In this document: positions 2,385 to 12,253 of the stretch, piece by piece
How positions within the stretch are numbered: position 1 is the stretch's first letter
Layout: every line of letters starts with the position of its first letter
Assembly: GCA_016763895.1 (NCBI GenBank)
Contig: JAESSV010000240.1
Span: forward strand, 1-12,253
DNA: 12,253 nt
Reading direction: 5' to 3'
Source of the DNA: Magnetovibrio sp.
Lineage (GTDB): Bacteria > Pseudomonadota > Alphaproteobacteria > Rhodospirillales > Magnetovibrionaceae
Notes under the pieces: model-generated
The model's input: the letters and a program-made list of their open reading frames with translations, nothing else
Told to the model about the DNA's origin: nothing
The model's database searches: none
Made by a program: the position numbers and the translations under genes

Positions 2385-4817
2385 GTGTCTGAAAACCAAT
2401 ACATAAGTCAAACCTCACCACAGCTTTACCGGCTGTCTCTTGTCTTGTCGAGCGCCGTTGGCTTCATTGTGTTGGTTCTCCTCATTGGTTTTTTTGTTTT
2501 TTATGCCGTTCAACAAACACAAGGTCTTAAAGAAACAGTCTATGACAAAACCAATCGAATTTTAACGGCATTGGAAATTGCTCATAGTCAAAGCATGTTG
2601 CACCGAAGCAGCAAAAAAGATAACACCCCCGTCATCAAAGCCATGGACGCAACACTTTTAGGCATGAGCCAATCACAAAAACACATCAAAGTGTGGTTGG
2701 TTATGGGGCCAAAAGTTCTGGCTTTTCAACGCTTGCATAATCAAGAAACCGAATTGGCGCTTGATGCCGTTGATGAACAGACGTTGCGTTCAGGACAAAT
2801 CACCGAACGTTTTTCAGACGCCAACCTTTACCGTCTTTCAAAACCCATTGTCTTAGGCCAAGGCCATGCCTCTAATCCTAAATGTTTTTCGTGTCACAAC
2901 AAAGATATGGGAATCAACGAAGGCGAAGTCATTGGGATCATGTCAGCCTCTTATGATGCAAACGACGAAGCCCTTGCCGTGCGCGATCGGATTATAATTG
3001 CGGGCATATTTTTCATCCTGATTTCGGCAACCTTGATGGCGCTGGCGTATGTCTTGACGCGAAAGCTTGTCGGTGAACCCATCGAAGAAATTTCAACAGC
3101 CATGCAATTGTTGGCCTTTGGCGAAGATCAAATTATTCTTCCCAAGCACAATAAAATTATTGAAATCAGAGAGATCGTCACGGCGGCAGAGGTCTTAAAA
3201 GGCGTCACACATTCCATCAGAAACGATCTTTTGTCGCAAAAAAAGGCCCTAGACGAACATGCCTTTGTTTTCATTTCAGAAACGCATGGGCAAATCACCT
3301 ACGTCAACGATAAACTTTGTCGCATCAGCGGTTATGATCGCGAAGATTTAATTGGCGCCAGCCACCGCATCTTGTTGATGGCCGAACATGACCCGGACCT
3401 TTACGTTAACGTGTTAAAAAACATTCATAACGGAAAAATCTGGCATGGCGAAATTCAAAAAAAGCACAAATCCGGGGGCCATTTTTATTGGTTGCAAACA
3501 ACCATAGTCCCCATCATCAGAAGTGACGGATGTTCGATTGCCTATGTGTCCATCAGCACCGACATCACGGAAGCCAAAAAGCTTCAAAAAGCATTGAGTG
3601 ATGCTAAAACAACCATGGAAACACATGTTTTGGAACTTGCCCTTTCTGAGACCAAACTGGAACGCAAGATCAAAGAAATCCAGGCAAGTGAGACGCGCAT
3701 CAAGGCCATCGTTGATACAGCAACCGACATCATCATGACCATTTCTCCGCGCGGCGAAATTTTGTCCGCAAACCCGGCTGCCGAAAAGGTTTTTGGCTAT
3801 TCAAAGATAGAAATGATCGGCAAAAAAGTATCCAAGCTCTTGGAATTTTCTGATGGCAGTGCCAAAAATAGCCTTGTGCCCCAGTCCATCAAAATAGATC
3901 TTAACAAAACCATCGGAACAAAACGCGAAATTACGGGACAGAAAAAAAATGGTGAATGTATCCCCCTGAGCATTACTCTGTCCTATGTCACGTCCAATGA
4001 GGAAGATTTTTACTGTGGTATTCTTCGCGACCTCACAGAAGAAAAATTTGTGCAAGCCCAACTCATTCAATCTGAAAAATTGTCCTCCCTTGGTCAAATG
4101 GTTGCGGGGGTCGCCCATGAAATCAACACGCCGGTTGGGACAGCCGTGACCAATGTTTCAGAATTAATCGATAAAACATCCGTTTTTCAAAACAAACTCG
4201 GCAGCGCAGGCATCAGCAAAAGCGATCTGGATGACTTTCTCAGAGACACTCAAGATTTTTCATGTATGGCGTATTCAAACCTTATTCGAGCCGCAGAACT
4301 GGTGCGTAGTTTTAAAAATGTTGCCGTCGATCAATCTTGTGAAAGATCAAGAGAATTCAATCTTTTTGAAACCATTGAAGCCATCATCAGAACCATTCAT
4401 CATGATTTCAAGCAAACAAAAATTACGTTTAATATTGATTGTGAAAAAGATATCGTTCTGTTGAGCAACCCCGGAGCGATCAGCCAAATCATATCAAACC
4501 TGGCCAACAATTCCCGTATTCATGGGTTTAACAACGGCACCGAACAAGGAGAGATAAAGATATCCGTTAAACAGAACAAACAACAAAACACGATTTGTCT
4601 GACGTATTCAGATACCGGCTGTGGTATTTCCGCAGCCGATCAAAAACGCATTTTCGACCCTTTTTTCACAACCCGCCGAAACGAAGGCGGTTCGGGGCTT
4701 GGCATGCATATCGTCCACAATTTAGTCACGGAAACCCTTGGGGGATCGATAGAGGTCAACAACAATACCGACCATGGGGTTCAGTTTAAAATCATCCTAC
4801 CGATGGGACACCCCTAA
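2385..4817 (+). CDS. Membrane sensor histidine kinase with periplasmic haem-c (CxxCH) sensor, HAMP and two PAS domains
   Basis: An 810-residue inner-membrane sensor kinase. A membrane helix at about 18-42 is followed by a periplasmic domain (43-202) holding CFSCH at residues 167-171, a class c haem attachment motif, in a context (LYRLSKPI...CFSCH...GIMSASYD) resembling the DUF3365/Tll0287-like sensor. The second helix is at about 203-225, then HAMP (222-275), PAS (about 288-398), a coiled coil, and a second PAS (about 435-555). The kinase core has the H-box VAHEINTP with phospho-acceptor His578, an N-box with Asn709, G1 box DTGCGI (743-748) and G2 box GGSGLGM (768-774), all intact. The GTG start is chosen because AAGG (2374-2377) lies 7 bases before it. 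A redox, NO or oxygen signal is likely through the haem, which is inference. It has no receiver of its own; the convergent CheY-like protein is a candidate partner. Confidence 0.94.
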   Translation: MSENQYISQTSPQLYRLSLVLSSAVGFIVLVLLIGFFVFYAVQQTQGLKETVYDKTNRILTALEIAHSQSMLHRSSKKDNTPVIKAMDATLLGMSQSQKHIKVWLVMGPKVLAFQRLHNQETELALDAVDEQTLRSGQITERFSDANLYRLSKPIVLGQGHASNPKCFSCHNKDMGINEGEVIGIMSASYDANDEALAVRDRIIIAGIFFILISATLMALAYVLTRKLVGEPIEEISTAMQLLAFGEDQIILPKHNKIIEIREIVTAAEVLKGVTHSIRNDLLSQKKALDEHAFVFISETHGQITYVNDKLCRISGYDREDLIGASHRILLMAEHDPDLYVNVLKNIHNGKIWHGEIQKKHKSGGHFYWLQTTIVPIIRSDGCSIAYVSISTDITEAKKLQKALSDAKTTMETHVLELALSETKLERKIKEIQASETRIKAIVDTATDIIMTISPRGEILSANPAAEKVFGYSKIEMIGKKVSKLLEFSDGSAKNSLVPQSIKIDLNKTIGTKREITGQKKNGECIPLSITLSYVTSNEEDFYCGILRDLTEEKFVQAQLIQSEKLSSLGQMVAGVAHEINTPVGTAVTNVSELIDKTSVFQNKLGSAGISKSDLDDFLRDTQDFSCMAYSNLIRAAELVRSFKNVAVDQSCERSREFNLFETIEAIIRTIHHDFKQTKITFNIDCEKDIVLLSNPGAISQIISNLANNSRIHGFNNGTEQGEIKISVKQNKQQNTICLTYSDTGCGISAADQKRIFDPFFTTRRNEGGSGLGMHIVHNLVTETLGGSIEVNNNTDHGVQFKIILPMGHP
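2883..2897 (+). other. Haem c attachment motif CxxCH in the sensor domain
   Basis: Codons for Cys167-Phe-Ser-Cys170-His171 lie in the periplasmic segment between the two membrane helices of the kinase, where cytochrome c maturation could attach haem. There is a single motif, so one haem per monomer is expected. Confidence 0.8.
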
Positions 4818-5254
4818 ATCACGGGGGGCGAAATAAAGGGTGTCGTTAACGCATTGATGATTTGTTGTTTGAGAATTTCAATCGTGATCGGCTTTTCAAC
4901 AAATCCTGAAATACCCAGATCAATCGAATCGTGAAAGTTCTGCATTTGACCATTCCCGGTTAAAATAATAACGGGGATTTTGGCACACACCTCATTGGTA
5001 TTGAAGCGCAACGTCCGAACGAACTCAAAGCCATCCATTTCGGGCATTTCAAGGTCACAAATAATGAGGTCAATATCCACATTGTTGGCGATGACGTCTA
5101 AGGCCTCGACACCGTTTTTGGCCGTTAATATTTTTGAAATGCCCGCCATCCCAAGGGATCGTTCAATCATTTTCAACATAAACGGGGCATCATCAATCGT
5201 TAGAACATTTAAGTTTGCAAAATCGATCTCGGCGGGTATTGCGATATTTGACAT
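4814..5254 (-). CDS. Single-domain CheY-like response regulator
   Basis: A 146-residue stand-alone receiver with no output domain. The acidic pair is Asp21-Asp22 (TIDDAP), the phospho-acceptor is Asp67 (IICDLEMPEMDG), the switch Thr is Thr99 (ILTGN) and the conserved Lys is Lys121 (VEKP), so the active site is complete. A 14-residue N-terminal extension precedes the fold. Its ATG follows directly on the stop codon of the upstream hybrid kinase (no bases between), and its ribosome site GAGGGA lies inside the kinase's last codons, so the two are translationally coupled. It probably takes phosphate from the kinase's HPt domain or from the convergent haem-type kinase, and acts by binding another protein. 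Its stop overlaps the stop of the convergent kinase gene by 4 bases. Confidence 0.95.
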   Translation of the reverse strand: MSNIAIPAEIDFANLNVLTIDDAPFMLKMIERSLGMAGISKILTAKNGVEALDVIANNVDIDLIICDLEMPEMDGFEFVRTLRFNTNEVCAKIPVIILTGNGQMQNFHDSIDLGISGFVEKPITIEILKQQIINALTTPFISPPVI

Positions 5255-8200
5255 CTATAGTCCCTCTATATATTCAACAACATCGCCCATGGACACGCTT
5301 AAACGGGGCATGCCGACACTGACCTGTTGTTTATTGCCTGACTTTCCAGACTTTTCAAGACCAACACATAAATCAGCCAAATCATTAGCCCCCACCGCGC
5401 GAGCCGCAGACTTCAATTTATGAGCCCCAGCCGAAATTCCGTGCATATTTTCATCGGCGAACGAGCCTTTAATTTCGCTTATAATGCCCAGCGAAGAATC
5501 TTTGAATTCCAAAAGGATTTCCTTATAAGTATCATCGTCGTCCCCAAACATATCTTTTAAGGTTCTGGGGTTAATCGGGCCTTCGGCGGGCGGTTCAGTT
5601 TCACGTTCAGGTCCTAATCTTGGCACATTAATCTCAATCTGTCCGCCCGCATAAGACGGCATCCACTTGGATAATGTTTTTTCAAGGGTTAAAAGCACCA
5701 ATGGCTTGCTCAAATAATCATCCATGCCGGTTGCCAAACAATAATCGCTTTCCCCATCAAGGGCATTTGCCGTGATCGCAATAATAGGAAAACGAACATC
5801 GGATTCTTTTTCTTCTGCCCGAATGGCTTTGGTCAGGGCATAGCCATCCATGTGTGGCATGTGGCAATCGGTTAACAACAAGGCGTATTTTTTGCTTTTC
5901 CACATCTCGAAAGCTTGTTGCCCATCAGCCGCTATTTCACAGGCGAAACCCAACAGTTTCAGTTGGCGCATAATGATGTCTTGGTTGGTGGAATTGTCTT
6001 CGGCAACCAAAATTAATTGCCCCCTTTGTAACGCTTCCTCAAGGCTTGGAACGGTTCGAATGCCCTTTATGATATCAAAGGCTTGATCCGTAACTTGCGG
6101 ACTGGCCCGGCCCATGATCATGGCCACACAGTGCAAAAAATGGGACCGCTTTAAGGGGGAATTTGCCACCACCACCGTGTCGGCACCCACCAAGCCTTTT
6201 GTCGCCCCAGCATCTTCGGTCAACAAAATAAACTTTAAATCTTCAAGCTCAACATGAGCCCGCATTTTATCGACCACCAGGTCACGTTGACCCGCGTCCC
6301 ATGACGAACAAAATATAGCAATATCAAAGGGTTTTCCTGATTCTTTTTCTTTTTGTGCCATATCAAATAAAGACGTAAAATCACGGGCCGGGACCACGTC
6401 ACAGCCCTTGTTTTTCAAATAACGGGTAATGATATTTTGTTCTACATCGTCAAAAACCGCCGATAAAACACGAACACCGCTGAGGTCGACTTCTCCTAAG
6501 GAGGCCGATTTTAGTTCAATGACATCAAATGGTATGTGCACGCGAAAGGACGAACCAACGCCTAATTTACTGCTTATATCGATGGTGCCCTTCATAAGGT
6601 CGGTCAGGCTTTTGGATATGGAAAGCCCAAGTCCTGTCCCCCCAAAGCGACGCGTGGTTGAACTTTCGGCTTGGGAAAAGGGTCGAAACAATTCGGTCAT
6701 GGCCTCACCGGAAATACCGATGCCGTTACCTTCGACCGAAAAAAGCACACAAACGTCCTTAGCAGACATCATTTTTTCTAATTCAGCCCGGACCATCACA
6801 CGCCCCGACGCATCATTGGTCTGATCCGTAAACTTGATCGCATTGCCGCAAAGATTAAACAAAACCTGACGAATACGCCCCGGATCACCTGTGACCAGAT
6901 CGGGAATATCTGGATCAATAAAAATATTGAACTTAATTTTTTTAGCCGCAGCATTCGGCTGTAATGTTTCGGCAACACTTTCTACCGCGTCTCGAATGGA
7001 CACCGGGATTGATTCCAGTTCCATTTGGCCCGCTTCAATTTTTGAAACGTCCAAAATATCATTGATAATGCACAACAATGAAAAAGCTGAATCCCGTACC
7101 GTACGTGTCATCCGAGATTGTTCAGCATCCATTTTGGTTTGGCGCAACAAATCAATCATGCCAATAACGCCATTCATTGGCGTCCGAATTTCATGGCTCA
7201 TGGCCGCCAAAAATGACGATTTGGCATCGCTGGCCGATTCTGCGGATTCCTTGGCGATGACAAGTTCAGATGTTCTTTCTTCAACACGTTTTTCCAGATC
7301 TTGATTGATCCTTTGCAAGGCATGTTGAGCTTCTTTTCGTTCAATCGCATGCATTTTAAAAACCCCGATCGATTTGGCCATGTCACCAATTTCATCGGTT
7401 CTGTCATTGCCGGGGATTTGCACCAAATTATTACCATCAGCCAAGTCATGCATAACTTCGGTGATGGCTTTCAAGGAATTGATGATGGATCGAGACAACG
7501 CAATAACGGACAAAAGCACCGTCAGAATAAAAATGCCCACAATAAGATTGGTTTTTTGCGTCGCATTCGCAGAACTTTTAGCGATGGCTTGCTTGATTTC
7601 TTTTTCCAAGGCCGCCGCTATTCCTTGGGCTTTGGCAAGCTCATTCCCCATACGGCCTTGCAGGCCTTCTTCTGAGGTTAAACCAATGGCCAAGGCCTCT
7701 TTTTGCAAGTTGTCAAAGGCTTCTATATAGAGCTCAAGTTCCGTTTGGATGTTCAATCGGATCTTGGGCTCTTTCACCAACAGCTGAATATCATCCATCA
7801 TAAGTTTGGAATAATTTTCAAACTTTTTCACGTACTTGTCCTCATGGCGTAACATGAGATCTTTTTCCGGGCGTTGGGTCATCAACATCCTGCGATGCAA
7901 CGCATACCGAACACCCTTGTCTTCAAGGTGTTTCAAGTATTTTTCCATGCCATGGATATGATTGCGCAAACTTCCGCGTATGCCTTCACGCTGATTGCGA
8001 CCAATTTTTTTAATGATCGAAACCAGTTCGTCAAAGGATCGCTTATAAGCGCCAATAATTAACATGAAATCTTTGATATTTTTTGTGCTAACATTGTGTT
8101 CGCGAAGATATTGACCAATTTCTTGAGTGCTGTTGAGCAAATCATCATATCGGCTGTTAAATTGCTCTGCATACAAGAAATCATGGGTGCCAATAAATGA

Positions 8201-8377
8201 CTTTTCTTGTTGCTGAAGCTCGATAAGGCGGGTCTGAAATTCAATAACGTCAACGCGACGTTCATTCATTTTTTCAAGCAGGCCGGTATGTTGAGAATCG
8301 AAAAAGACCAAGGCGGAAACACCGACCAAAACGATCAGTGACACGACGTGAAGTTTAGCATTAATCGATATAGACAC
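5255..8377 (-). CDS. Hybrid histidine kinase with HBM sensor, two receivers and HPt
   Basis: A 1040-residue membrane phosphorelay protein. Residues 8-27 form a membrane helix. A helical periplasmic sensor (about 30-270) contains [17 protein letters not shown] (167-183), the signature segment of HBM (helical bimodular) sensors, which in characterised chemoreceptors bind small organic acids. Then come membrane helix 277-294, HAMP (about 295-345), a coiled coil, HisKA with His395 ([11 protein letters not shown]), and HATPase with Asn512 and the GGTGLGL box (579-585). In the G1 box the usual D-x-G-x-G Asp is Gly550 (VEGNGIGIS). Receiver 1 (about 635-755) is degenerate, with Cys690 where the phospho-acceptor Asp belongs. 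Receiver 2 (about 787-905) is intact (Asp837, Thr869, Lys891). A C-terminal HPt has His986 ([12 protein letters not shown]). Translation starts at GTG 8377, with a GGGGGAG ribosome site 10 bases away. It forms an operon with the downstream regulator. Confidence 0.96.
5261..5266 (-). promoter_or_regulatory. Ribosome binding site of the response regulator inside the hybrid-kinase 3' end
   Basis: On the minus strand GAGGGA lies six bases before the regulator's ATG and is itself part of the hybrid kinase's last sense codons (…IEGL). Translation of the regulator should therefore depend on ribosomes finishing the kinase. Confidence 0.75.
6728..6730 (-). other. Codon for Gly550 replacing the conserved G1-box Asp
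   Basis: The minus-strand codon is GGT where the family has GAT or GAC (consensus VxDxGIGI). That Asp hydrogen-bonds the adenine of ATP in GHKL ATPases. A single base change would explain it; see findings. Confidence 0.85.
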
Positions 8378-8387
8378 CGTTTAACAG

Positions 8388-8413
8388 CTCCCCCAAGTGT
8401 TAAGCTCTCCCCC
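8388..8413 (-). promoter_or_regulatory. Duplicated GGGGGAG ribosome-site-like element before the hybrid kinase
   Basis: On the minus strand GGGGGAG occurs at 8413-8407 and again at 8394-8388, 19 bases apart and each followed by a similar AGCTTAA / GCTGTTAA stretch. The nearer copy is 10 bases before the GTG start and is the likely ribosome site. The farther copy may be an imperfect duplication of the leader. Confidence 0.5.
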
Positions 8414-8566
8414 GATCGCAATTCTAATACTAACGTGGTCTTCGCAACCTGCAACAAAATTAAACCAAATGTTATATTTATGAATGGCTTAAAATGTCTA
8501 ATATAAAGGGCAACATTCAGGGCCAGTTCAGATTAACAGACGTAATATTTGGCATCAAAAAAAATA

Positions 8567-8581
8567 TTGTTTATTAAACAA
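8567..8581. repeat. Perfect 7-bp inverted repeat upstream of the DUF6134 gene
   Basis: TTGTTTA and TAAACAA flank a single central T. The palindrome ends at the ribosome site (AAAGGA, 8580-8585) of the gene starting at 8596. It lies in the 218-base divergent spacer between the hybrid kinase and the operon. It could be an operator for either unit; the A+T-rich composition makes chance possible. I found no clear sigma-70 hexamer pair in this spacer. Confidence 0.4.
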
Positions 8582-8595
8582 AGGATTCGATCATC

Positions 8596-9261
8596 ATGAC
8601 CAAGCTTTCCCGTTCCGTTGTAATATTTGGCGCAATCTTTGGTGCTCTTTTGCTCTCTATCATGAGCTTTGATGCTTTGGCCGCCACCAAAAACCTTGAA
8701 TATACTGTTCTGCGTGATGGAAACGAAATTGGAACACACGCTTTTGTCATCGAAACCAAGGGTGCAGACACGAATGTAACGGTCACCACCAATATCCAGA
8801 TCAAGAAGCTCTTCATTACGTTTTACAAATTCACCCATGAATCCAGAGAAACCTGGAAAAATGGACAACTGATTGCTTTGTCTTCCACCACCGACGACGA
8901 TGGCATAGCAAAGGCTGTTTCCGTGAAAGCCGAAAATGGGAAAATAACCATTAATGCCCAAGTCCAAGGACATGATCGTCGCCAATATGCCCCCGCAAAC
9001 GCAATCCCTGCGAGCCTTTGGAATGCTGAGACTGTCAAACAAAGCATGATCGTCAACACCCTTGACGGTCAAATGATGAAAGTTAAAATTGAACGCGTGG
9101 GCACAGAAGACGTTACCGCCAGCGGCACCACGGTTGTGGCAAACCACTACAAACTCACCGGCGAATTAACCCGTGATTTGTGGTACAATTCTGCGGGGGA
9201 TTTGGTCCGCATGAGTTTTCCGGACAAAACGGATACAAAAATCGTTTACAGCTTGAATTAA
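8596..9261 (+). CDS. Exported DUF6134-family protein
   Basis: A 221-residue periplasmic protein with a clear signal peptide: MTKLSR, then a hydrophobic core, with predicted cleavage after ALA at residue 29. The mature part is predicted to be beta-rich, beginning LEYTVLRDGNEIGTHAF. It contains a pattern I associate with the uncharacterised DUF6134 family: FITFYKFTHESRETWKNGQL, then LSSTTDDDG, PASLWN, the VANHYKLTGEL segment, and LWYNSAGDLVRMSF near the end. Such proteins resemble outer-surface or lipid-carrier-like beta sheets, but no activity is established that I know of. An AAAGGA ribosome site precedes the ATG by about 10 bases. It is the first gene of the plus-strand row; a 59-base gap separates it from the next. 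The family assignment is from memory, not a search. Confidence 0.8.
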   Translation: MTKLSRSVVIFGAIFGALLLSIMSFDALAATKNLEYTVLRDGNEIGTHAFVIETKGADTNVTVTTNIQIKKLFITFYKFTHESRETWKNGQLIALSSTTDDDGIAKAVSVKAENGKITINAQVQGHDRRQYAPANAIPASLWNAETVKQSMIVNTLDGQMMKVKIERVGTEDVTASGTTVVANHYKLTGELTRDLWYNSAGDLVRMSFPDKTDTKIVYSLN

Positions 9262-9316
9262 AAGTTACGTGCCAAACGTTATCTATACATCACGTCTGTT
9301 TTTGAAGGTACTCCGA

Positions 9317-9352
9317 TACAATGTCCAAGGCTTTTACAATGTCCAAGGCTTT
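9317..9352 (+). repeat. Perfect 18-bp tandem duplication spanning the start codon
   Basis: The unit TACAATGTCCAAGGCTTT occurs twice back to back (9317-9334 and 9335-9352). Each copy carries an ATG in the same frame, so the gene has two possible starts 18 bases apart and a protein beginning MSKAFT-MSKAL. Confidence 0.95.
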
Positions 9353-9947
9353 ATCGCCCATTCTAATTGACCGCAATCACCCGTCGCGGGCCGAGGCAGA
9401 ATCCTTGATTTCCGGGGTTTACGAGCGTGAGTACGGCGCTAAGATTGTTGCGTTTTCCGATCTGTTAATTGCCCTTCCAGGTGATGATGGTGTGTTAAAG
9501 GCGGCGGCAGGATTGCGGATTGGCGGCAACTTCTTTTCCGAAATTTACCTTGATCGTCCCATCGAACGCGTTCTTTCCGATCACTGGCTTCCCCCCGCAA
9601 CCAGAGCTGAGATTGCCGAAGTCACGACTTTGGCGGCGTTGCACCCCAACGCTTCTCACGCCTTGTTTTCCGGCATCATTGGTTATTTAAATGCCTTGAA
9701 TGTTCGCTTTGCTTTTTTCACGGTGACCGAACGTCTGCACCGGATGCTCATTCGCGCCGGCATTCCCGCCGAGGAACTGGCCACGGCAAAAGCTGAACAT
9801 GTTCACAATGCTGAAGAATGGGGACGTTATTACGCCACCAATCCCAAAGTTGTTGCCATTCACGATGCGTTTGTTTCCATGCCCGCAACGCACGTTGACA
9901 CTTGCGTTGCCCCTCTCATTCGCGTCAAGAGCTCTCGCCTTGCGTGA
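9321..9947 (+). CDS. Thermostable-hemolysin-family protein (putative GNAT/autoinducer-synthase-like acyltransferase)
   Basis: 208 residues from the first ATG, or 202 from the second ATG at 9339. The protein matches the pattern of the thermostable hemolysin family: AAAGLRIGGNFFSEIYLDRP (61-80), AEIAEVTTLAAL (96-107), FAFFTVTERLHRMLIRAGI (130-148), and a C-terminal WGRYYATNPKVVAI (167-180). The family usually shows EVGNLA where this has EVTTLA. There is no signal peptide or membrane helix, so it is probably cytoplasmic and the name hemolysin should not be read as a pore-forming toxin. The fold is thought to resemble N-acyltransferases or acyl-homoserine-lactone synthases; that is my inference. 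GAAGG at 9304-9308 is 12 bases from the first ATG and 30 from the second, favouring the first. Its end overlaps the probable start of the acyl ligase. Confidence 0.83.
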   Translation: MSKAFTMSKALSPILIDRNHPSRAEAESLISGVYEREYGAKIVAFSDLLIALPGDDGVLKAAAGLRIGGNFFSEIYLDRPIERVLSDHWLPPATRAEIAEVTTLAALHPNASHALFSGIIGYLNALNVRFAFFTVTERLHRMLIRAGIPAEELATAKAEHVHNAEEWGRYYATNPKVVAIHDAFVSMPATHVDTCVAPLIRVKSSRLA

Positions 9948-11361
9948 GATTGTCACAGCACTTGCCGATCATGCGAAAACCATGCCCGAAGCACTTGCCG
10001 TTGTCGATGTGTCTGTCGCTGGTTCTGTCAATGGATTGGGGGGTTCTGTCAATGGATTGGGGCGCTTAAGCTTTAAAGAATTGGCCGGGCGCGTTGCCTA
10101 CCTTGCAAAAAGCCTTCAAAAAAGTCCCGAAACCATTGCCATTTTCGCACCCAATTGCGCCCTGTGGGTGATTGCCGATTTGGCCTTGGCGGTAGCCGGC
10201 AAAACCATGGTGCCGCTGCCCACTTTTTTTTCGCCAGAACAACTGTCTCATATCCTTCAAGATTCCAAAGTTGACCTCATTTTAACCGTTGCAAGCCTAG
10301 AAGACCAAGCCAAGGCCCTTGGTCGACCCTGTAGGGTGTTAAGTGAAACCGATGACACCCGCCTGCCCTTGCCAGACGATTTAAGCGCTGCGGACAAATC
10401 TGGGCGCATCATTTACACATCTGGCACAACAGGAACCCCCAAAGGGGTGCGCATAGGCTCACGTCAAATTTCAGCCAGTGCCCAAGGCCTGGTCGCCGCC
10501 AGTGGCGCCACCAAAGAAGACCGTTACTTGTCGGTCTTGCCTTTTTCATTGTTGCTGGAACAAATCGCGGCGATTTGTGTGCCGCTGATCGCCGGTGCCC
10601 CCCTTTATATTGAGGCCAGCGCTGCGGCGGCCGCGACCCAGGGCGATATTAAACCCCTTGTCCAAGCCTATCAAACCCATCAACCCACGGCCTCCGTCTT
10701 GGTTCCCAGCCTGTTAAGTGCCTGGGTTCAAGGTTTGTTGGCGATGAGATTAGAAGCCCCCGAAAGCTTGCGATTTGTCGCCGTTGGCGGGGCTCCGGTG
10801 TCCCCGGCTCTTGCGGATACGGCATGGGCTTTGGGCATTCCCGTCCACGAAGGTTATGGTTTGTCGGAATGTTGTTCCGTGGTCAGCGTCAATCGCCCCG
10901 GCGCCCGCAAACCCGGCACCGTGGGCCTCCCCCTTGATGGAACACACATCAGCATTGTCGATGGGGAAATCGTCATCAAAGGCCCCACGGTTATGGATGG
11001 GTATTTAGGCCGCGAGAATTTAGACGGGCAAGTTTGGCATACGGGCGATTTGGGTGAAATAACCGAACACGGTGAAGTGCGCATTTTCGGGCGCAAAGAC
11101 AAATTGATCGTCACCCAAAATGGCCGCAACATCAATCCCGAATGGATTGAAACCCTGGCCCAAGATGCACCCGGCGTGGTTATGGCCAAGCTAACCCTGA
11201 CACCTGAACAAGACTTGGTGTTAAATGTAACGCATGTGCCAGGCATTGAAATTGAAGACTTGCCAAACACCGTTCGTGCAGCCCTAAGCGGTGCGCCAGA
11301 TTATGCCCAACCGACACAAATTACGTTGACGAATATGACAAGTTTAAGGACCGCACCATGA
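9940..11361 (+). CDS. AMP-forming acyl ligase (ANL superfamily), lacking the A10 lysine region
   Basis: A 473-residue adenylate-forming enzyme expected to activate a carboxylic or fatty acid with ATP. Motifs, numbered from the TTG start: phosphate-binding IIYTSGTTGTPKG (157-169), VAVGGAPVSP (280-289), GYGLSE (305-310), WHTGDLGE (366-373), and the hinge GRKDKLIVTQNGRNINPEWI (384-403). The chain stops about 20 residues after PDY (452-454), and no A10 lysine motif (PxxxxGK) is present, so the acyl-adenylation step may be impaired or rely on another residue. The frame is open upstream to ATG 9799, but that would overlap the preceding gene by 149 bases and add residues unlike the family. TTG 9940 with AAGAG 8 bases upstream gives the family-like start REIVTALADHAK; ATG 9982 is an alternative. 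The stop overlaps the next ATG (ATGA), a sign of coupling. Confidence 0.88.
   Translation: MREIVTALADHAKTMPEALAVVDVSVAGSVNGLGGSVNGLGRLSFKELAGRVAYLAKSLQKSPETIAIFAPNCALWVIADLALAVAGKTMVPLPTFFSPEQLSHILQDSKVDLILTVASLEDQAKALGRPCRVLSETDDTRLPLPDDLSAADKSGRIIYTSGTTGTPKGVRIGSRQISASAQGLVAASGATKEDRYLSVLPFSLLLEQIAAICVPLIAGAPLYIEASAAAAATQGDIKPLVQAYQTHQPTASVLVPSLLSAWVQGLLAMRLEAPESLRFVAVGGAPVSPALADTAWALGIPVHEGYGLSECCSVVSVNRPGARKPGTVGLPLDGTHISIVDGEIVIKGPTVMDGYLGRENLDGQVWHTGDLGEITEHGEVRIFGRKDKLIVTQNGRNINPEWIETLAQDAPGVVMAKLTLTPEQDLVLNVTHVPGIEIEDLPNTVRAALSGAPDYAQPTQITLTNMTSLRTAP
10021..10062 (+). repeat. Perfect 21-bp in-frame tandem duplication (GSVNGLG twice)
   Basis: Two identical 21-base units, 10021-10041 and 10042-10062, lie in frame near the 5' end of the acyl-ligase gene and add one extra copy of the heptapeptide GSVNGLG just before the conserved RLSFKELAGRV segment. 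Identity of the copies, including all wobble bases, indicates a recent event. Confidence 0.95.
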
Positions 11362-12035
11362 CATTTTTTAAAAAATTAATGGATGAAACAGCTTCCCAAC
11401 GCGAAGAATTCCAATCCATTGCTTTGATCCAACACACCGTTCAACATGGCGTCACGCCAGAACTCTATGCGTCATATCTTGAACAAGCTTATCGCCATGT
11501 ACGTTATACGGTGCCCTTGTTGGAACAAGCCCGCGACACCTGTCTTGCCCAAGGGGATGAAAGCTACATTGAAGCGCTTAACGAATACATCGAAGAAGAA
11601 ACAGGGCACGACGAATGGATTTTAGAAGACATTTCAGCCTTGGGATTCGATTCAGAATCGGTCCGCAACGGACAAGGCGGTTTTGCGTGTCGCATCATGA
11701 TTGGCTATGCCTATTACGCGATTGAACGCATTAGCCCCTATGCTTTGTTGGGCATGGTCCATGTTTTAGAAGGCATGTCTGTCGTCTTGGCGGACAAAGC
11801 TGCGGGTTCAATTGCCAAAAGTTTTGGCGACACCCCTCCCGATGCGTTTTCCTATCTCACCAGCCACGGCGCGTTAGATATAGAACACGTCCAGTTTTTT
11901 GAAGATTTGGTCAATGGCATCAAAACCCCGGAAATTGAACGTATTATCATCTCTGCTGCCAAGGACTTTTACACCCTGTTTGGAAATATTTTTCGCGAAC
12001 TTGGCACAAATCGCCTTAGCCCAACAACACCTTAA
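11358..12035 (+). CDS. Haem-oxygenase-like probable diiron oxidase (iron-containing redox enzyme / TenA-like fold)
   Basis: A 225-residue soluble, all-helical protein of the haem-oxygenase/TenA-like superfamily, here of the iron-containing redox (HDO) type. Candidate metal ligands sit where that family has them: ExxH at Glu81-His84 (EEETGHDEW), Asp91, Glu138 (HVLEGMS), and DxxH at Asp174-His177 (ALDIEHVQFF), with a further acidic residue possible in the first helices near His47. Characterised relatives oxidise or decarboxylate acyl or amino-acid substrates with O2. Residues RHVRYTVPLLEQA (46-58) and an aromatic YAYYAIERISPYAL stretch (117-130) are also typical. The ATG overlaps the ligase stop by 4 bases, strongly suggesting that the ligase product or its acyl chain is the substrate. 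Annotation pipelines may call it TenA or a TenA transcriptional regulator; the ExxH/DxxH pattern argues against thiaminase. Confidence 0.83.
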   Translation: MTFFKKLMDETASQREEFQSIALIQHTVQHGVTPELYASYLEQAYRHVRYTVPLLEQARDTCLAQGDESYIEALNEYIEEETGHDEWILEDISALGFDSESVRNGQGGFACRIMIGYAYYAIERISPYALLGMVHVLEGMSVVLADKAAGSIAKSFGDTPPDAFSYLTSHGALDIEHVQFFEDLVNGIKTPEIERIIISAAKDFYTLFGNIFRELGTNRLSPTTP

Positions 12036-12058
12036 ACCTTAGATGAATAGGATTTTCC

Positions 12059-12253
12059 ATGAACATTAACGGTAAAATAATTGTTGTCACTGGCGCTGAT
12101 CTGGCATTGGATTTTACTGATGCCGGTTATGCAACTTCAGTCGGGCTTTCTCTCAATGAACTGCTCGATGTGGCTAGAAAGCTGTATGGGGCCGCCGGGA
12201 ATAAATGTGACATAGTGATCGCAGAGCTTGCCGATGGCCTTTACCAAAGCGAA
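12059..12253 (+). CDS. Start of an unrecognised gene; SDR-like first 13 residues, then a different segment (runs off the window)
   Basis: 65 codons are visible, open to the last base. TAGGA (12048-12052) is 6 bases before the ATG, so the start is well supported and 23 bases separate it from the diiron oxidase. The protein begins MNINGKIIVVTGA, the usual opening of a short-chain dehydrogenase, but the TGxxxGxG nucleotide loop does not follow. Instead it continues ADLALDFTDAGYATSVGLS and ends IVIAELADGLYQSE, which reminds me of the central part of dethiobiotin-synthetase-like P-loop proteins (LDFTDAG, EIADGL), whose N-terminal P-loop would then be missing. Leucine codons also shift: CTG 3 of 9 here against 1 of 20 in the preceding gene. 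A fusion, a deletion scar or an assembly join are all possible. Function not assigned. Confidence 0.6.
   Translation, partial: MNINGKIIVVTGADLALDFTDAGYATSVGLSLNELLDVARKLYGAAGNKCDIVIAELADGLYQSE

Follow-up and report, generated by a model that had tools for sequence, protein, structure and literature searches.

The stretch of DNA analyzed here (the window) is a complete contig of 12,253 bases (JAESSV010000240.1, C190) from a 59% complete genome of Magnetovibrio sp., and its right-hand part carries a compact plus-strand gene cluster that includes a member of the "thermostable hemolysin" family. The gene for this protein (TH, 9321-9947) is identified by a match to PF12261 (E 4.6e-44; 150.7 bits against a curated cut-off of 27) and is followed by a gene with a TTG start encoding a predicted adenylate-forming (ANL) acyl ligase (LIG, 9940-11361; PF00501, E 1.7e-60, 205.3 bits against a cut-off of 29.9), a gene for a predicted haem-oxygenase-like dimetal oxidase (HO, 11358-12035; PF14518, E 5e-17) and the first 13 codons of a short-chain dehydrogenase/reductase (SDR) gene (12059-12097), the fourth gene of the conserved core. 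Upstream of TH, on the same strand, lies a gene for a DUF6134 protein of 221 amino acids (8596-9261; PF19630, E 1.3e-49) with a signal-like N-terminus, as judged by eye, which is preceded by a divergent intergenic region of 218 bases (8378-8595) where, given the limits of the open reading frames (ORFs), the operon promoter would lie. The spacing given in a preliminary description of this DNA, namely a gap of 59 bases after the DUF6134 gene, overlaps of 8 and 4 bases on either side of LIG and a gap of 23 bases before the fifth ORF, is borne out by the ORF coordinates. The same description counted five plus-strand genes, four of which are indeed intact, but the fifth ORF, which extends from 12059 to the contig end, joins the beginning of the SDR gene to unrelated sequence.

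The similarity of this fifth ORF to the SDR starts of the related loci L016, L019, L015 and L017 ceases abruptly at 12098. The sequence from this point on has no relative among the 20 other genomes searched and gives one weak match in a phage-protein collection (E 1e-3). Because the window is a whole contig of an incomplete genome and diverges from its relatives at 12098, the segment 12098-12253 is treated as a contig-end junction, a chimera or an inserted element. The window has only these 13 codons of the SDR; the intact homologues match PF00106 (the SDR of L114 also scores above the NF006565 cut-off). The SDR is a member of the core cassette that went unrecognized in the preliminary description because the contig ends inside its gene.

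Proteins of the PF12261 family are encoded in 11 of 60 near relatives (the source genome included), and a survey of 397 genomes spanning the phylum finds them in 68. The profile of the HO subfamily divides these 397 genomes cleanly: 66 score 293-369 bits, and no other match exceeds 145 bits. All 66 also encode TH, and TH without HO occurs in two genomes, in one of which (G309) TH is a fragment scoring 22.5 bits, under the cut-off. In 65 of the 66 genomes, the two genes have the same orientation and are 1,447-1,789 bases apart; in the remaining one, they are located on two contigs. The HO matches under 290 bits (16 places) were excluded from this comparison, and 15 of them are in genomes that lack a high-scoring HO. 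The co-occurrence pattern is close to all-or-none in this sample, in which some genera are heavily represented, so that its p-value is nominal. Thus, TH and HO do not scatter independently, which is the check that had been proposed for the original suggestion that four families constitute one set; TH, LIG and HO do co-occur, whereas DUF6134 falls outside the core and SDR belongs to it.

The same gene order recurs in genomes of the same genus, of the same family and across the phylum, so the arrangement is beyond chance. Among the best 80 of 572 confirmed HO loci, all from named genomes, 77 contain TH, LIG, HO and SDR (in one of these, L097, TH is reduced to a 33-bit fragment where the contig begins or ends); contig ends interrupt the other three. 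Together with plasmid records, these loci include Polynucleobacter, Pseudoalteromonas and Variovorax. In a plasmid collection, HO homologues are found on 22 of 72,556 records (H10-H29 and two more), ten of which come from Pseudoalteromonas, and two copies on large plasmids are annotated, successively, as thermostable hemolysin, AMP-binding protein, iron-containing redox enzyme and SDR, followed by a TPR or hypothetical protein. Outside the window, 69 TH places were considered: 40 were taken as larger loci, of which 39 were analyzed (the 3.4 kb contig of G203 was omitted), two more (G038 and G045) are among ten near-relative loci, and the other 27 were judged by the TH-HO distance only. The resulting gene-order comparison covers 130 loci, which are 129 distinct ones since L013 and L100 are one contig; counts below are given for 130. 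LIG is fused to HO in nine of these loci and TH to LIG in one. Across 118 loci, the pairwise distances of the four proteins correlate (r 0.46-0.77, a range that partly reflects the common descent of the species), and none of 200 permutations reaches any of these values. Second copies of TH away from the HO cassette are found in two genomes of one genus (G123:C26 and L064, the latter a lone second TH).

The AlphaFold2 model of TH (pLDDT 90.8) was compared with known structures using Foldseek and VIA-align. The best matches are acyl-homoserine lactone (AHL) synthases, followed by FeeM and general GNAT enzymes, and the model falls within both the LuxI/GNAT and the FeeM folds, in agreement with the earlier suggestion, accompanied by a proposal to compare a structure prediction with GNAT and LuxI folds, that the hemolysin-like protein could be an acyltransferase with an autoinducer-synthase-like fold. 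Glu100 is invariant in 50 of 50 TH sequences, is located at the start of a strand and is probably in the active site; it may correspond to Glu95, the active-site glutamate of FeeM. The likeness to the LuxI family (TofI, LasI, RpaI, BjaI; PF00765) lies in the modeled fold, whereas the invariant E, D and D of LuxI have no counterpart in the invariant columns of TH, and the ligase/oxidase/SDR operon setting and the missing PF00765 match set TH further apart. PF12261 is the sole Pfam match of TH at E 0.001, with neither PF00765 nor PF21926 reported, and a PF00765 search of the source genome gives zero matches. There is also no sequence-level match to the FeeM-type N-acyl amino acid synthases (PF21926) or to OlsB (PF13444), and a sequence search of PDB with TH returns nothing meaningful. 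The first 14 bases of the TH gene are repeated at 9339 (a short direct repeat, 9321-9352), so that the second ATG may be the true start.

The family name and the literature on the Vibrio hemolysin delta-VPH, whose role in disease is called unclear in one paper (PMC5592226), would suggest a genuine secreted hemolysin accompanied by helper enzymes. This is highly improbable given the GNAT/LuxI fold predicted for TH, the lack, by eye, of a signal-like N-terminus and the occurrence of the family in Polynucleobacter, Pseudoalteromonas and Variovorax. These three genera are free-living. The structural comparison indicates that TH is probably a cytoplasmic LuxI/FeeM-like acyltransferase rather than a pore-forming toxin.

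The predicted HO protein retains a complete 3H/3C set of metal ligands (E81, H84, E138, H170, D174 and H177), all six of which are invariant in 47 sequences and align with those of 3dde, CADD (1rcw) and MboA (9ypi). In a 2026 review, a ligand set of this type is attributed to most dimetal oxidases of this fold (PMC13108848). HO shares PF14518 and the same order of ligands with the haem-oxygenase-like dimetal oxidases (HDOs) UndA, CADD, MboA, AetD and SznF, and is thus likely to be a dimetal, O2-using oxidase, as the preliminary description had proposed in calling it a diiron enzyme. In contrast to these proteins, it belongs to a separate, tight subfamily (293-369 bits, against 145 bits for the next HDO) that is accompanied by TH in all 66 of the 397 genomes where it occurs. 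The nearest solved relative is 3dde (E 4e-22), a protein of unassigned function, and the score with the model of the CADD para-aminobenzoate synthase (TIGR04305) is 24.7 bits, below the cut-off of 200. The ligand set, the E-x2-H spacing common to HO, MboA and 3dde, and an acyl substrate that would suit the other three genes could also be accommodated by formation of a hydrocarbon or a desaturated fatty acid, with HO acting on an acyl chain like UndA or MboA and TH moving the product to an acceptor. However, UndA acts on free fatty acids, without a ligase or an SDR, and none of the 29 PDB sequences that the HO profile matches is a chain named UndA, which makes this quite improbable.

The LIG protein shares with ANL enzymes (MenE, FadD, adenylation domains of nonribosomal peptide synthetases) the PF00501 core with the TSGTTG..PKG, YGLSE and TGDLG motifs, and its profile is nearest to MenE and the nonribosomal adenylation domains. 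It differs at the A10 position, where ANL enzymes usually have the catalytic lysine: in 128 loci, arginine is found in 101, lysine in 12 and another residue in 11, and the position is missing in 4, namely the window, L015, L016 and L019, all of one genus, in which the C-terminus stops before A10. Hence the earlier description of LIG as truncated holds for the window, but among these loci the truncation is seen only in this genus. For the window LIG, PF00501 is the only Pfam domain reported, with none at the C-terminus, whereas the homologues in L022 and L114 bear a C-terminal PF23562 domain. Within the LIG coding sequence, a 21-base unit is doubled at 10021-10062. Activation of an acid by this predicted ligase appears likely but not certain.

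Data compatible with function of the cassette have been published for the biocontrol bacterium P. alcaligenes AVO110. Five consecutively tagged genes, annotated as encoding an acyl-CoA synthetase, an iron-containing redox enzyme, an SDR, a TPR protein and a response regulator, are reported to be induced 389, 373, 318, 107 and 38 times, respectively, when this strain has spent 4 h in exudate of Rosellinia necatrix (PMC8304167). This order is that of 15 of our loci, TH-LIG-HO-SDR-TPR-response regulator-histidine kinase (e.g., L066 and L073), and the expression data fit the cassette. The authors of that study label the cluster as beta-oxidation and refer to its fadD as previously found essential in fungal exudate (PMC8304167); in the signature-tagged screen from which this gene came, metabolism mutants competed in exudate with indices between about 1e-3 and 1e-1 (PMC6344628). 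Together with the PF23562 domain of some LIG homologues, this would suggest an accessory role in fatty acid breakdown, with LIG as a FadD-type acyl-CoA synthetase helping to use environmental fatty acids. Acyl-CoA dehydrogenase, hydratase and thiolase are, however, absent from the ten annotated clusters of neighbors that recur in at least five loci, beta-oxidation is not known to involve a LuxI-like fold or a dimetal oxidase, and the A10 lysine is lacking in 116 of the 128 LIGs, so that this explanation is distinctly unlikely. A search of the open literature (subscription journals being largely not covered) yielded no account of this cassette as a unit, and the available part of the HDO review mentions neither a hemolysin nor a ligase (PMC13108848). 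DtpC of A. baumannii was rejected as an instance of the same cassette: it is another HDO, in an operon with katE, and hemolysin, acyltransferase and SDR do not appear in the text available (PMC13232832). Involvement in anti-phage defense was likewise set aside, since PADLOC matched none of the five proteins examined (the four of the window and one TPR protein).

Several genes are associated with the cassette in subsets of the loci. DUF6134 is found in 16 of the 130 (15 distinct), either immediately upstream of TH or separated from it by one regulator/kinase pair, and is confined, in the loci seen, to the alphaproteobacterial-type version. A TPR-like protein of about 200 amino acids with a signal-like start is encoded in 98 loci, usually right after SDR. 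The two never occur together, and 16 loci have neither. Among the 60 near relatives, PF19630 is present in 29, including all 11 that bear TH (adjacent in 8) and 18 that do not. DUF6134 is therefore an accessory gene with a distribution broader than that of the cassette, outside the conserved core; its inclusion in the set by the preliminary description is valid in the lineage of the window but not elsewhere.

Matches to an OmpR-type regulator and a kinase are both found within the fetched stretch in 69 loci, and neither in 46. The order DUF6134-regulator-kinase-TH is observed in L099, L103, L108 and L111 (in one gene-order listing of L099 and L111, the pair is partly masked by antisense ORFs). 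In L114, the regulator is nearest to PmrA/QseB models and the kinase to QseC/CztS/PmrB models. In 31 loci, the two-component pair is followed by genes for a cupredoxin, an FTR1/EfeU-like permease and an unassigned exported protein (L102, 10088-11857; L114, 10071-11938; and 29 others), a possible link to iron or copper. The kinases and the regulator upstream of the operon in the window are of other types and have domain-level matches only, at 26-33% identity, in the seven nearest loci, so apparently they do not travel with the cassette in this lineage. They comprise a PAS-domain histidine kinase with a CxxCH (c-type haem) motif in the sensor part (2385-4817), possibly a haem-bearing sensor, and, on the minus strand and divergent from the operon, a hybrid kinase that contains receiver and Hpt domains and has a single-domain response regulator directly after it (4814-8377). 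The window contains zero RNA families at the gathering threshold and zero tRNAs.

The linked regulators, together with the proximity of TH to AHL synthases in the predicted fold, raise the question of whether the cassette makes a diffusible molecule, similar to an autoinducer, to which the linked histidine kinase and response regulator respond. We consider this unlikely: the LuxI arginine is not kept in TH, no LuxR-type gene is among the ten annotated neighbor clusters, over a third of the loci lack both regulator and kinase, the kinases of the window are of other types, and the linked kinase is also similar to metal sensors.

Association of an HDO with an N-acyltransferase is also observed outside the cassette. 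Ten of the 15 lower-scoring HDO places in genomes without a high-scoring HO were examined, eight blind and two (G127 and G196) for coinciding acyltransferase coordinates; four adjoin an N-acyltransferase and six do not. The pairs involve a FeeM-type enzyme in L267 (E 1.3e-29) and, on the opposite strand, in L271 (E 2.4e-9), and an OlsB-type one (PF13444) in L268 and L270, which are of the same genus. By comparison, 147 control loci (1.73 Mb), mostly cassette loci but also DUF6134 neighborhoods away from TH, contain zero ORFs of FeeM or OlsB type. Given this difference, HDO-fold oxidases and N-acyltransferases appear to cooperate in more than one context. Unlike the cassette, none of these pairs has LIG or the cassette SDR beside it in the loci seen.

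From the computed linkage, fusions, predicted fold and ligand residues, we infer the following putative substrates, step order, product and export. LIG would activate a carboxylic acid for TH or for HO; TH would transfer the activated acyl group onto an acceptor that carries an amine, for instance an amino acid; HO, using its dimetal center and O2, would oxidize the acyl or the amino acid part; and SDR would set the oxidation level of the resulting carbonyl or hydroxyl. The resulting compound would be a small amphiphile, and an exported accessory protein (DUF6134 in the window, the TPR protein in other loci) would handle it outside the cytoplasm, often under the control of a linked QseBC/PmrAB-like two-component system. 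We assign a probability of about 60% to the locus being the alphaproteobacterial-type version of a widespread TH-LIG-HO-SDR biosynthetic cassette that makes such an amphiphile by these steps. Less specifically, the cassette probably builds a modified fatty acid-based small molecule; it is real, widespread and highly conserved, and most likely makes an oxidized acyl conjugate. The interpretation in the preliminary description is thus partly upheld, in the fold of TH and the TH/HO linkage but not in placing DUF6134 in the core and overlooking SDR.

Several observations weigh against the proposed pathway. The activities of its members are predicted from sequence and modeled structure. The fold of TH comes from the predicted structure because sequence and profile comparisons are weak: hhalign gives probabilities of 5.6% with LuxI, 0.1% with FeeM and 1.2% with OlsB. 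The Z score of FeeM (15.2) is within 1 of that of the general GNAT enzyme 5jph (14.8), so that acetyltransferase-type chemistry of TH is conceivable, and N-acetylglutamate synthase ranks seventh in Foldseek. The arginine of the LuxI W-E-x-x-R motif, present in 13 of 13 LuxI sequences, is found in none of 50 TH (N, T, S, H or C instead), a column match that depends on the weak hhalign alignment. The usual A10 lysine is mostly absent from LIG, and the A10 motif altogether from the window, so LIG may not adenylate in the usual way. L014 lacks HO, and L072 lacks HO and SDR, with only TH and LIG. Of the four HDO-acyltransferase pairs, G127 and G196 were preselected, G277 and G196 belong to one genus, and the genes in G377 face opposite ways. 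The correspondence with the AVO110 genes is based on their order and product names rather than on sequence, no mention is made of a TH gene in that strain, and the transposon insertion may have polar effects.

A bolder extension, which we regard as speculative, is that the TH family is a further LuxI-like acyltransferase branch beside LuxI, FeeM and OlsB, and that the cassette makes an undescribed class of oxidized N-acyl lipids across alpha-, beta- and gammaproteobacteria, a signal or an envelope lipid detected by a dedicated two-component system, with an exported accessory protein to handle it. The TH family is on virulence lists as a hemolysin but is probably an enzyme of small-molecule synthesis, in which case surveys that score it as a toxin are misleading. 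Being common, compact and nearly invariant, the cassette could be worked out in a single strain; for a biocontrol bacterium, expression and mutant data may already exist, read as fatty acid breakdown. The dimetal oxidase superfamily, which is growing, would gain a new reaction. In a few other genomes, the pairing of such oxidases with acyltransferases of the FeeM/OlsB type suggests that the chemistry extends further and has been little explored.
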